Shown in pieces: positions 539 to 45,899 of a stretch of 47,493 nucleotides of DNA. The notes beneath the pieces were generated by a model, which was not told the DNA's origin, did no database searches, and saw nothing but the letters and a program-made list of their open reading frames with translations. Numbering within the stretch: the stretch's first letter is position 1; the number at the start of each line of letters is the position of its first letter. The stretch is from a bacterium (GTDB lineage Bacteria > Sysuimicrobiota > Sysuimicrobiia > Sysuimicrobiales > Segetimicrobiaceae), in assembly GCA_035945995.1 (NCBI GenBank), contig DASYZR010000158.1, forward strand, positions 1 through 47,493. Reading direction: 5' to 3'. Made by a program: the position numbers and the translations under genes.

Positions 539-1694
539 GTGACGCCTGACGAACTCAAACGCTCATTGGCGACCTACCGCGAACGCCTGGACGGCATCGG
601 GAGGCATCTTTGACCTTCCGCACCAGCAGACCCGCCTGATCGAGCTCGAGCGACAGATGCAGCGTCCCGGTTTCTGGGACGCGCCGGAGAACGCGCGGCG
701 CGTGTCCCAGCAGGTCGCGCGCCTGCGAGAGCAACTGGACGACCTCAGCCGCCTGGACCGGGAGATTGCCGACCTCGCCGAGCTCGTGACCCTCGCCGGC
801 GCGGACGACAGCGTGCTGGCGGACGTCGAGCGGGAGAGCCGCGTGGTCGGCGAGGCCCTTGACCGCGTCGAACTGGCGACGCTGCTGTCGGGCGAGCATG
901 ACGGCAGCAACGCCATCCTGTCGGTTCACGCGGGGGCCGGCGGGACCGAGGCCCAGGATTGGGCGGAAATCCTCCTGCGCATGTACCTGCGGTGGGCGGA
1001 AACCCACGGGTACCGGACCGATGTCGTCGACATGTCCCCGGGCGAAGAGGCGGGGGTGAAGAGCGCCACCGTCATCATCGCGGCGCCGAGCGCCTACGGC
1101 TATTTGCGCGGGGAGCGGGGGGTGCACCGGCTCGTGCGGATTTCTCCGTTCGACGCCGCGCACCGCCGGCATACGTCGTTCGCCCTCGTCGACGTCATTC
1201 CGGAGGTCGAGCCCGAAGAGGTGACGGTTCGCGACGACGAATTGCGGATCGATACCTACCGTTCGGGCGGGGCGGGCGGCCAGAACGTCAACAAGGTCGA
1301 GACGGCGGTGCGAATCACGCACCTGCCGACCGGAATTGTCGTGCAGTGCCAGAACGAGCGGTCGCAGCACGCCAACAAGCTCACCGCGATGAAGCTGCTG
1401 CAGGCGCGGCTGTTCGAAGCCCAGCAGAAGGAGCACCTCGAGAAGATTTCCGCGATCCGCGGCGAGCACCGGGACGCCGCGTGGGGCAACCAGATCCGCT
1501 CGTACGTGCTCCAGCCGTACACCCTGGTCAAGGACCACCGCACCGGCCTCGAGGTCGGCAACACGCAGGGCGTGCTCGACGGCGCGATCGATCCCTTCAT
1601 CCACGCGTATCTGCGCCGCGGCCGGTCTCCCGAGACGCCCGACTCGCGCGGGGCAGGCGCGGCCGAGGTCCGGCCGGCCCCCCCGGCGTCATGA
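539..1694 (+). CDS. prfB: Peptide chain release factor 2, with +1 programmed frameshift
   Basis: RF2 reads UAA and UGA stop codons and triggers release of the finished peptide. The first 24 codons (539-610) end at an in-frame TGA (611-613). The ribosome shifts +1 at CTT and continues from 612, giving a protein of about 384 residues. Visible RF2 hallmarks are the S-P-F anticodon-like tripeptide (in [14 protein letters not shown]) and the catalytic G-G-Q loop in [13 protein letters not shown] at 539 is preferred because a perfect extended -10 lies seven bases upstream; ATG at 530 is the in-frame alternative. The C-terminus carries about 25 extra residues (from [10 protein letters not shown]), partly encoded by a palindromic repeat shared with other genes. 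The stop overlaps the next start (ATGA at 1691). Confidence 0.97.
599..614 (+). promoter_or_regulatory. prfB autoregulatory frameshift site
   Basis: The internal Shine-Dalgarno GGGAGG (599-604), CAT, slippery CTT (608-610) and TGA followed by C (611-614) have the same order and spacing as the classical prfB recoding site (AGGGGG-TAT-CTT-TGA-C). When RF2 is scarce, the UGA is read slowly and the ribosome slips +1, restoring RF2 synthesis. Confidence 0.95.
1640..1659 (+). repeat. Palindromic coding repeat, copy in the prfB tail
   Basis: The 20-base string from 1640 to 1659 ends in the 12-mer GCGGGGCAGGCG (1648-1659). It matches 40352-40371 in the Rieske fusion gene at 19 of 20 positions. Upstream GCCC pairs with the GGGC of the repeat. 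It is read as S-R-G-A-G in the C-terminal tail of RF2. Confidence 0.6.
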
Positions 1695-31370: not shown

Positions 31371-32064
31371 GCGACGATCCTGAGATGTCCCGAACCCGGG
31401 CGGGTGGCGTCGCCTCTCCGCCGGCCGTGAATGTTAGCGGATCTCCGTCCGCGCCGTCCAGGAACGCCGCCTCCAGGTCCACGACACTGAGCTCCAGTCG
31501 CGAGGCCACCGCGGCAACGTCCTGCTCCACGGACCGTTGGGCCTGCTGGAACGTGTGGTGCGTTTCACCGACCAGCCGATCCGCTTCGGCCCGCAGGCGG
31601 GCCAACCAGGCCGCGGTTCGATGCCTCGCGGCCCCCACGATCTCGTCCGCGTCCTGCCGGGCCTTCCGGACGATCTCCGACGCGTCCCTCCGGCCGGTCT
31701 CGACGATATCGCCGGCCGCCGTTTCCGCCCGGGCGACGATCGTCTCAGCTTCCGCCCGTGCGGTCCGGACGACGTCCTCCGCGCTCTTCTGCGCGGTCAG
31801 CAGGGTGCGGGCGATCAGGGACTCCTCATCGCGTCGGCCGCCGGCAACCTGCGCGGCGGGTTTCGCGTCGGCCGGCGCCCCAGGCCCCGACTGACGCGGG
31901 GGAGCCGCGGTCACCGGCGGCGCCGATGCGGTTGCATCCTGGTCGCGCCGCGAGCGCGACGCATGCCGGACCATGCCTCCCCACAAACGGTAGATTCCGG
32001 CCCCCGAAACCACAATTCCCACGATCAAGACGACAGAGCCGAAGATGCCCAAGACGTCATTCAC
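31330..32064 (-). CDS. Membrane-anchored coiled-coil protein
   Basis: 244 residues: one N-terminal helix (about 5-27), a Pro/Ala-rich linker (about 40-75) and a long heptad-like coiled coil (about 80-190) made of repeated A-E-x-I-V-x-x-A units (TARAEAETIVARAETAAGDIV, DASEIVRKARQDADEIV). It resembles the DivIVA C-terminal or ATP-synthase-b type of coiled coil but has no DivIVA N-terminal motif, so the function is open; a scaffold role at the membrane is plausible. The last 13 or so residues (L-V-A-P-G-E-F-E-S-P-F-R-P) are translated from the antisense strand of tRNA-Glu, so the original C-terminus may have been replaced. ATG 32064 is preceded by a GAGGG ribosome site. Confidence 0.75.
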   Translation of the reverse strand: MNDVLGIFGSVVLIVGIVVSGAGIYRLWGGMVRHASRSRRDQDATASAPPVTAAPPRQSGPGAPADAKPAAQVAGGRRDEESLIARTLLTAQKSAEDVVRTARAEAETIVARAETAAGDIVETGRRDASEIVRKARQDADEIVGAARHRTAAWLARLRAEADRLVGETHHTFQQAQRSVEQDVAAVASRLELSVVDLEAAFLDGADGDPLTFTAGGEATPPARVRDISGSSLVAPGEFESPFRP

Positions 32065-39230: not shown

Positions 39231-41096
39231 ATGGAGACTCCGGTGCGGCAATGGGTGCGGGCGGCGCGGGCCGCCGACGTGCAGGCCGCCGGGCGCCTCG
39301 CGGTGTCCGTCGACGGACACACGATCGCGCTCTTTGCGTGGGACGGCCGCCTGTACGCGGTGGATAATCGTTGTCCTCACATGGGCTTCCCGCTGGATCG
39401 CGGTACCGTCGCGGACGGCATTCTCACCTGCCACTGGCATCACGCGCGGTTCGATCTTGCCGGCGGCGGCACGTTCGATCAGTTCGCCGACGACGTGCGG
39501 GCATATCCGGTCGAGGTGCGCGGCGGGGACGTCTACGTCGATCTGTCGCCGCGGGGGGACCCGGGCGCCCACCACCGCCGGCGTCTTCGCGACGGCCTCG
39601 AGCGTGACATCCCGCTGGTCATCGCGAAGGCCGCGCTCGTCCTGGCCGGCGACCCCGCTGATCGCGGGGCAGGCCCCGTTCGTCACGGGCCAGGCCCCGC
39701 TGATCGCGGGGCGGATCCGGCGACCGACGCCCCGTCTGGCGCGGGGCAGGCGGTCCGGATCGGCCTCGACTTCGGCACCCGGTACCGCGCCGGGGGATGG
39801 GGGCAGGGCCTCACCATCCTCACGTGCTACGCGAACCTCCTGCCGCACCTCGACGCCCCGGACCGGCCATGGGCGCTCTACCACGGCCTGAGCGCGGTCG
39901 CCCGGGATACCGATGGAGCGGCGCCGCGGTTTGCGATCGCCCCGCTCCCGGACGGCTCCGCGGACATCGACCGGCTCACCGGCTGGTTCCGGCGGTTCGT
40001 GGAGGTGCGCGACGCCGAGGGCGCCGAGCGGTGCATCGTGTCCGCGGTGCGCGCCGGCGGGGACGGGGCGGCCCTTGCGCGGATGCTGTTCGCGGCCGCC
40101 ACGGACCACCGCTTCATCCAGATCGGGCACGTGCTCGACTTTACGAACAAAGCCTTCGAAGCCCTCGATCTCGCCGGATGGGCCCACGCCGAAGCGACGC
40201 TCGCCAGCCTCGCGACGGCCTACGCGGCCGCCGATCGGATGGAAGAGTCGAATGCCTGGCGCCATCCCATCGATCTGGTCGCCATCGTGGAAGCGGCCGC
40301 GGACCGACTCCCGGCGGCGCTCGAGGCGGGTCGCGGGCGGCGCGCGGCCCCCGACTCTCGCGGGGCAGGCGGCCCTGACGGTCTCGGCGCGGCCCCCGGC
40401 GGGGGGCAGGACGGGCTGGGGCCCGTGCTGCTCGCCGACGACCCGCAGGCGATCGCGGATGCGCTGCTCGACGCGCTGCGCGACGGGACGGATCCCCTCG
40501 ACGTCGCCGGCGCCGTGGCGTATGCGGCGGCGCTTCGCATCGCGCAGTTTCCACAGTCCAACGAGTTCGGCGACTGGGACACCGCACTCCACACGTTCAC
40601 GTTTGCCAACGCCGTGGAGCAGGGGCTGCGCCGGAGCGGTTCGGTGCCGCTCCTGCGTGGGATCTTCGATGCCGCGATGAGCGTGTACCTCGACCGGTTT
40701 CTCAACGTCCCGCCGGCGCGGCTGCCGGACCCGGATCCGGCGGCGCCCGCCGACCTCCTCGCCGCGCTCGGCGCCGCGCTCGACCGCCAACAGCAGGTGA
40801 CGGCCGGCGCGCGCCTCGTTGTCACCCACGTGGCCCGCGGCGGCTCGGTGGAACGCCTGCTCGCGACGCTCGGGCACCTGCTCGTGCGCGAAGACCGCAA
40901 CTTCCACACCATCCAGATGGTGGAAGCGGCCGTCCGTCAATACGCCGGCCTGCGTGCCAAGCCCGACGGCGCCGTTGTCCTGATTGCGGCCGTTCGGTAT
41001 CTTGCGGCCCACGCCCCGACGGTGCGGGCCGAAGGCCAGACCTTTGACATCGCCCGGCGCCTCAATCGCGGGGAGCGTCTCTTCGAGGGGGACTGA
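39231..41096 (+). CDS. Rieske [2Fe-2S] domain fused to a large helical domain
   Basis: 621 residues. Residues 1-105 form a Rieske ferredoxin-like domain with cluster ligands C48-P-H50 and C67-H-W-H70. Residues 110-160 are a Gly/Pro/Ala linker written by four palindromic hairpins. From about 165 to the end is a mostly helical domain with no family I can name, containing conserved-looking His positions in Y-H-G-L, I-G-H-V-L-D-F-T, T-A-L-H-T-F-T-F-A-N-A-V and R-N-F-H-T-I-Q-M-V-E. The Rieske part may pass electrons to a metal centre or substrate in the helical part, which would make it an uncharacterised oxygenase-type enzyme; that is inference. ATG 39231 has ribosome site GGAGGGG; ATG 39198 is in frame. 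It follows the MFS gene by about 100 bases. Confidence 0.8.
   Translation: METPVRQWVRAARAADVQAAGRLAVSVDGHTIALFAWDGRLYAVDNRCPHMGFPLDRGTVADGILTCHWHHARFDLAGGGTFDQFADDVRAYPVEVRGGDVYVDLSPRGDPGAHHRRRLRDGLERDIPLVIAKAALVLAGDPADRGAGPVRHGPGPADRGADPATDAPSGAGQAVRIGLDFGTRYRAGGWGQGLTILTCYANLLPHLDAPDRPWALYHGLSAVARDTDGAAPRFAIAPLPDGSADIDRLTGWFRRFVEVRDAEGAERCIVSAVRAGGDGAALARMLFAAATDHRFIQIGHVLDFTNKAFEALDLAGWAHAEATLASLATAYAAADRMEESNAWRHPIDLVAIVEAAADRLPAALEAGRGRRAAPDSRGAGGPDGLGAAPGGGQDGLGPVLLADDPQAIADALLDALRDGTDPLDVAGAVAYAAALRIAQFPQSNEFGDWDTALHTFTFANAVEQGLRRSGSVPLLRGIFDAAMSVYLDRFLNVPPARLPDPDPAAPADLLAALGAALDRQQQVTAGARLVVTHVARGGSVERLLATLGHLLVREDRNFHTIQMVEAAVRQYAGLRAKPDGAVVLIAAVRYLAAHAPTVRAEGQTFDIARRLNRGERLFEGD
39653..39752 (+). 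repeat. Array of four palindromic hairpins in the Rieske fusion linker
   Basis: CCCCGCTGATCGCGGGG occurs twice (39653-39669 and 39695-39711, 42 bases apart), with GGCCCCG/CACGGGCC hairpin between (39672-39691) and GCCCCG...CGGGGC (39729-39747) after. Two of the four are followed by CAGGC; the last includes the core 12-mer GCGGGGCAGGCG (39741-39752). The reading frame is kept throughout. Confidence 0.8.
40352..40411 (+). repeat. Palindromic coding repeat, second site in the Rieske fusion
   Basis: 40352-40371 matches the prfB copy at 19 of 20 bases. A second hairpin, CCCCC-GGC-GGGGGG followed by CAGGACGGG, lies at 40393-40412. They encode a Gly/Pro/Asp-rich loop (DSRGAGGPDGLGAAPGGGQDG) within the helical domain. 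Confidence 0.7.
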
Positions 41097-45345: not shown

Positions 45346-45899
45346 ATCACCATCGCGCCGGCCGCCTGCTCTCCGCGTACCTCGACGGCGAGTTGACGGC
45401 AGCGGAGGTCCAGGCGGTGCAGGCGCATCTGCTGGACTGCGCGGTCTGCCGCGAGGCGCACGAGTCCCTGCGGACGACGCGTGACCTCCTCGCGGGGGTG
45501 GCGCCGGCCGAACCGCCGGCCGAGTTCTGGCGGACCGTGCGCGGTCCCATGATGCGGGGGGCGGCGGCGACGGCCCTGGACCCCGTCTGGCGCGGGGTGC
45601 GGGGTGCGTGGCGGGCGGCGTGGCAGGGGGCGTGGCGGCCGATCGTGCTGCGCCGGCCGGCCTGGGCGCTCGCCGCGGTCGTCGTCATGCTGGCGCTCGC
45701 AGCGCTGCCCCTCGTGAAAGGCACGGTCGACCGGCTGCACGCGACCGAGATCGGCGTCGACCTCTACGTGCACGATCACGCGATGCAGATGGGCACGGCG
45801 CCGCTGGTAGATCGCGCGTACATCGGGCTCGTGTCGGGGGACGCCGAGCTGGTGCTGGCCGGAGAAACCCCGCGCCCGGTGGGAGACAACGTCCGATGA
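45342..45899 (+). CDS. Anti-sigma factor with zinc-finger domain
   Basis: 185 residues. The cytoplasmic N-terminus has H29-x3-C33-x2-C36, the zf-HC2/ZAS motif that binds the partner sigma factor. One membrane helix lies at about 107-127 (PAWALAAVVVMLALAALPLVK), followed by a short outer domain. Before the helix is a Trp/Arg-rich tandem stretch (VWRGVRGAWRAAWQGAW) encoded by imperfect GCGTGG-type DNA repeats. It overlaps the sigma gene (GTGA) and the next gene (ATGA), so the three proteins are made in fixed ratio. GTG 45342 is chosen for this overlap and for the M-N-H-H start. Confidence 0.92.
   Translation: MNHHRAGRLLSAYLDGELTAAEVQAVQAHLLDCAVCREAHESLRTTRDLLAGVAPAEPPAEFWRTVRGPMMRGAAATALDPVWRGVRGAWRAAWQGAWRPIVLRRPAWALAAVVVMLALAALPLVKGTVDRLHATEIGVDLYVHDHAMQMGTAPLVDRAYIGLVSGDAELVLAGETPRPVGDNVR

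Follow-up and report, generated by a model that had tools for sequence, protein, structure and literature searches.

The hairpin array within the Rieske fusion gene very probably arose in this species alone, when a dispersed, hairpin-forming micro-repeat inserted into a tolerant loop. Copies of the repeat are scattered through the genome, are absent from orthologous sites, form exact insertions of 21 or 24 bp and lie in linkers or at protein termini. The element would consist of the core hairpin CCCCGTCTGGCGCGGGG and a short tail, its unit being 21 bp long in the genome studied here (G000) and 24 bp elsewhere in the genus. Its copies may be mobile or copy-prone DNA of near-neutral effect, retained at sites that tolerate the peptide they encode (mostly APSG/AGQ or PVWRGA). 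The role of the hairpin would lie in spread or growth and not in a function after insertion. The analysed stretch (the window) is contig DASYZR010000158.1, 47,493 nt at ~70% GC, from a 4.15 Mb assembly of 181 contigs that is 98.8% complete and is the one genome of its species analysed here.

The array in the Rieske fusion gene

The gene joins a Rieske [2Fe-2S] domain to an all-helical C-terminal domain, and its probable start, ATG 39231, follows the G002 ortholog. The features of the window are listed below.

39231..41096, + strand: Rieske [2Fe-2S]/all-helical fusion gene carrying the array (PF00355 at residues 11-83 of protein P0001; orthologs; structure model)
39652..39672, + strand: copy 1 of the 21-bp AB unit, ACCCCGCTGATCGCGGGGCAG
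39673..39693, + strand: copy 2, diverged, GCCCCGTTCGTCACGGGCCAG, with a 5-bp hairpin
39694..39714, + strand: copy 3, GCCCCGCTGATCGCGGGGCGG, with a 17-mer in common with copy 1
39715..39728, + strand: 14-bp spacer ATCCGGCGACCGAC, similar to the putative ancestral linker (GGATCCGGCGGC in G005)
39729..39749, + strand: copy 4, exact consensus GCCCCGTCTGGCGCGGGGCAG, in a frame that differs from copies 1-3
40348..40368, + strand: further copy in the fusion gene, in a second disordered loop where relatives are shorter or different
31884..31904, + strand: probable extra copy, one core mismatch, antisense to a codon-supported frame
1636..1656, + strand: possible degenerate copy, in the C-terminal end of the gene for a peptide chain release factor (PCRF and RF-1 domains)
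45581..45598, + strand: core-hairpin copy CCCCGTCTGGCGCGGGGT of another tail type, in a codon-supported frame (DPVWRG)

The copy at 45581 was found by pattern match, and a simple inverted-repeat scan gave no flag there. The single match at 1636, like those at L023, L030 and L171/L182, may be due to chance and was left out of the key evidence.

The first-pass annotation had described an exact 17-base duplicate with its copies 42 bases apart, a third hairpin between them and a fourth after, and this description proved accurate. Exact copies of CCCCGCTGATCGCGGGG lie at 39653-39669 and 39695-39711, a spacing of 42 bp or 14 codons. The hairpin between these copies (CCCGT TCGTC ACGGG) is weaker, and the fourth, at 39730-39746 in copy 4, is canonical (CCCCG TCTGGCG CGGGG). 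The array pair (two overlapping 17-mers) is the sole exact 17-mer pair no more than 100 bp apart in the window, any such pair appeared in 4 of 300 dinucleotide shuffles of the window, and the pair is unexpected by chance. In folding, copies 1-3 form a single long nested hairpin (z = -5.2).

The array encodes approximately residues 141-173, counted from ATG 39231, at the join of the Rieske domain (Pfam PF00355) and the all-helical domain. Its earlier placement as the linker between the two domains is supported, and this join is disordered in the predicted structure. AlphaFold2 models the fusion protein (pLDDT 82) with only two internal segments below 50: residues 146-168, within the array, and 373-392, which starts at the copy at 40348-40368. 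The combination of Rieske and all-helical domains is itself widespread, with at least 572 confirmed stretches from Chloroflexota, cyanobacteria, Acidobacteria, Planctomycetes and others; a Pfam family covers the Rieske part only.

Compared with the orthologs of three relatives, the array amounts to 78 bp net (26 codons) of additional sequence, and its 26 residues are missing in all seven aligned relatives. A linker constant in all relatives, named at first pass as evidence against amplification, is nearly what the relatives have (16 aa in 68 of 87 from many phyla, range 14-30 aa), yet the linker measures 42 aa in G000 and the insertion stands.

Repeat unit and growth in place

The repeat unit proper, GCCCCGTCTGGCGCGGGGCAG, is 21 bp long and is composed of a 12-bp module A (GCCCCGTCTGGC) and a 9-bp module B (GCGGGGCAG). 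Module A equals GCCCCGTCT plus GGC. Since GCCCCGTCT pairs with AGGCGGGGC over 9 bp (one wobble), spanning the B repeats, an A^nB^m array makes one long bulged hairpin. Arrays of 21-98 bp are laid out as AB, (AB)n or A^nB^m up to A5B4, with chimeras such as AB-AABBB. All modules are multiples of 3 and none of the six frames of the unit consensus contains a stop codon; insertions and local expansions therefore keep the reading frame. All 20 tabulated neighbour spacings are multiples of 3.

The earlier proposal of local amplification without loss of frame stands for the palindromic unit, in that the frame is kept and relatives are without the array, but the amplified unit is 21 bp and not 42 bp, and copy 4 probably lies outside the same amplification. 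Copies 1-3 look like the outcome of local amplification. Because copy 4 lies 77 bp from copy 1, it falls in a different codon frame and encodes DPADRGAG.., as compared with APSGAGQ in the frame of copies 1-3. Its canonical sequence, its other frame and the ancestral-like spacer before it suggest that copy 4 arrived separately, as a second arrival. The array had also been offered as a guide to how the element spreads; what it displays is growth in place, not a route to new sites.

Local amplification in place, with the A and B arms growing together, is supported statistically. Genome-wide, neighbouring copies within arrays resemble each other in their loop variants more closely than shuffled copies (1.40 vs 1.85 differences, p = 0.0004). 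Of the 41 A^nB^m blocks, 40 have numbers of A and B modules that differ by at most one (permutation p ~1e-4), and the n-m correlation is weaker without the single units (p = 0.08). Divergence is greater in outer than in inner B modules (p = 0.02), and a like trend in A is not significant. These data fit both insertion of AB nested in AB and duplication guided by the hairpin.

Pure local slippage or template switching, by which chance GC-rich, hairpin-prone seeds at many loci would have expanded independently, would also account for neighbouring copies being more similar than shuffled ones; the GC content of 70% and the known template switching at quasi-palindromes (PMC6649704) are in line with it. 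However, the same 21-mer, loop TCTGGC and tail CAG included, recurs exactly at unrelated sites, the insertions are clean, and the repeat is absent from two same-family genomes of similar composition. We consider independent expansion at each locus improbable and favor the arrival of a dispersed micro-repeat followed by growth in place.

Among the core-hairpin copies at the loci inspected, at least three tail types occur. The first is the 21-bp form. The second is a 24-bp form whose tail reads GAACGG or GAGCGG and which repeats in tandem every 24 bp, and the third is a longer form with spacings of 36 to 66 bp, largely outside genes or at gene edges; the 24-bp and longer forms are common to G000 and G002. 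Tandem 24-bp arrays of CCCCGTCTGACGCGGGGCGAACGG occur in G000 at loci L155 (1499-1590), L156, L157 and L158. L155 and L156 are contig ends whose array and right flank are near-identical, which suggests an assembly break or a duplicated end at the repeat. Near gene edges, at L159, L160 and L173 in G000 and at L185 and L188 in G002, lies a longer composite repeat (..CCTCCGGCCGCTTCGCGGCCTCCTGCCCCGTCTGGCGCGGGACCTCC..; spacing 36-66 bp), which may represent an older relative of this hairpin. Locus L021, on the 5047-bp contig C132 of G000, has one codon-supported gene flanked by two arrays opposed to each other, A4B3 and A2B2, which lie ~1 kb apart.

Dispersal, empty sites and protein context

With one mismatch allowed, the strict 21-bp unit has ~39 matches in G000 (totals for this genome are pattern counts) vs 2 for the reversed-pattern control, and nothing above background was found for it in 60 relatives. 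Doubled A and doubled B patterns number 23 and 17 in G000, respectively, vs 0 for either in the same-genus genomes G001 and G002. The looser core CCCCGNCTNNCGCGGGGC (one mismatch) gave 106 matches in G000, 24 in G002 and 6 in G001, against reversed controls of 6, 9 and 8; the G001 count is background only. The idea of a strictly species-specific family was dropped, as the looser core with other tails is present in the sister species G002, and only the 21-bp tail is restricted to one species. The ABB pattern has no exact match in genome_contigs or viral_contigs, from which the genome's own records may be excluded.

Comparison of orthologs reveals sites with and without the repeat. The tsaD gene of G000 carries exactly 21 bp more than its counterparts in G001, G002 and G005, and the G002 gene has a clean gain of exactly 24 bp vs G001 at a different place. 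Alcohol dehydrogenase (ADH) has gained 96 bp directly before its stop codon (vs G002); the gain in a HIRAN helicase is 51 bp, close to the C-terminus (vs G001). The junctions are uncertain by a few bases because the relatives are only ~80% identical. The two independent tsaD insertions in sister species, 24 bp in G002 (L175, 1562-1585) and 21 bp in G000 (L010, 3026-3046), are both antisense, in an essential tRNA-modification gene.

By Pfam domain boundaries, the array of lysyl-tRNA synthetase class I (LysS) sits between the catalytic and anticodon domains, and that of an ABC exporter between the membrane and ATPase parts. Arrays are N-terminal in RapZ, PFOR beta and an SDR, and C-terminal in ADH. 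Gene calls near many arrays rest on a codon model, and the N-terminal cases are possibly untranslated. The assigned copies occupy all six frames, antisense included, and further copies are found at apparently intergenic places. The sense APSG/AGQ frame is the commonest (12 of 27 assigned copies), and 21 of the 27 are on the gene's strand. This pattern of frames and strands fits DNA-level spread filtered by protein tolerance.

Selection at the protein level for flexible Ala-Pro-Ser-Gly/Ala-Gly-Gln linkers, with codons that converged or expanded by slippage and no mobile DNA, would likewise predict the excess of the APSG/AGQ frame and of the gene's strand, and many arrays do lie in linkers or at termini. 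This explanation is nonetheless highly improbable and largely refuted by the use of the same DNA in all six frames, in antisense and at apparently intergenic places; synonymous positions are conserved between unrelated genes, and G001 has no such arrays. A peptide motif as the unit of repetition was ruled out by the use of all six frames.

A functional RNA or DNA hairpin (an attenuator, or a nucleoid or replication signal) under selection at each site is very unlikely as well. The folds are stable, with z down to -5.2, and several copies are located at gene junctions. However, the stems show no compensatory changes (paired cells 90.7% vs 90.5% shuffled), evidence against any function being kept up once a copy has inserted; Rfam has no match at the Rieske array, and the interiors of unrelated coding genes are odd signal sites. 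A stem kept by selection was rejected as a candidate for lack of compensatory changes. Insertion of a micro-repeat, tolerated by the host protein, remains our preferred account of these sites.

Known palindromic repeats and the means of spread

As far as tested, none of the systems compared shares the repeat's sequence or end tags. Rickettsia palindromic elements (RPE) are selfish-looking palindromic DNA found in frame in conserved housekeeping proteins and also between genes, and their palindromes decay later (Ogata et al. 2000, reviewed in PMC2229807). The 21-bp repeat resembles them as a palindromic in-frame insertion in conserved protein genes that is absent from orthologs. RPE differ in being 105-146 bp (PMC2229807), with 12-bp terminal inverted repeats, as opposed to a 21- or 24-bp unit of 12- and 9-bp modules; no sequence relation was seen, and the phylum is different. 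Coding palindromes of Wolbachia and Methanocaldococcus are cited in the study that describes PARCEL (PMC2996958), palindromic DNA that encodes repeat peptide arrays; its 75-nt units belong to a conserved amphipathic domain and move together with whole ORFs. Palindromic DNA encoding repeat peptides is common to both, whereas the inserts here are short, frame-indifferent and placed in unrelated genes.

The small dispersed repeats (SDR) of Nostoc, associated with Elhai et al. 2008, are hairpins of 21-27 bp that were recently mobile in a narrow clade and nest in their own copies. By that definition, the clean 21- and 24-bp insertions in G000 and one sister species are a likeness. The balanced A^nB^m blocks would fit nesting, and would also fit local slippage. 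The Nostoc repeats, which we compare by description and which are mentioned in PMC3116915, belong to another phylum and probably differ in sequence, and here the modules are codon multiples that form balanced A^nB^m arrays inside proteins.

Intragenic REPs of the GTAG and CGTC classes are hairpins of 20-40 bp, tandem or grouped, some of them in tRNA synthetase and DNA-repair genes and sometimes twice per gene, and the CGTC class is without a dedicated transposase (PMC3733652). An element of the REP/REPIN type, moved by a RAYT (Y1 tyrosine transposase) since lost or lying outside the assembly, would agree with the repeat's size and hairpin, its dimers and tandem groups, its preference for gene ends and its copies within genes (PMC3733652). 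We regard such an origin as unlikely. PF01797 (Y1/RAYT), the one family covered by our transposase search, has no match in G000, G001 or G002; its absence from G000 is likely, not certain, because the assembly is 98.8% complete, and a missed gene is unlikely but possible. Neither end of the unit has a GTAG or CGTC tag. The consensus of 34 variants lacks a GTAG end tag and runs from GCCCC.. to ..CAG, and CGTC, which with a CCA tail marks the REP end in its class, is here internal to the hairpin (GCCCCGTC..) and followed by the tail CAG. GTAG REPs are mainly extragenic. Most inspected copies of the repeat lie in or against what the codon model, in place of curated annotation, reads as coding sequence.

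MITEs carry the terminal inverted repeats of a parent IS and are flanked by target-site duplications. No clear target-site duplication was seen at the compared insertions, and the IS search consisted of PF01797. A GC dinucleotide directly follows 21 of 32 arrays vs a background of 12.7%, and could be a 2-bp duplication or merely the element's end.

More tentatively, the repeat might be a micro-mobile element of 21-24 bp, among the smallest known, built of whole-codon modules, that would spread by inserting into its own copies without a RAYT-type transposase and would be lengthening the loops and ends of essential proteins across the genus. The balanced two-module design makes the growth step testable. 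For annotation, the repeat explains odd species-specific linkers and termini of essential proteins in G000. The clean insertions of 21 and 24 bp that two closely related species carry at separate sites in tsaD make it directly visible how palindromic DNA can extend proteins by whole codons.
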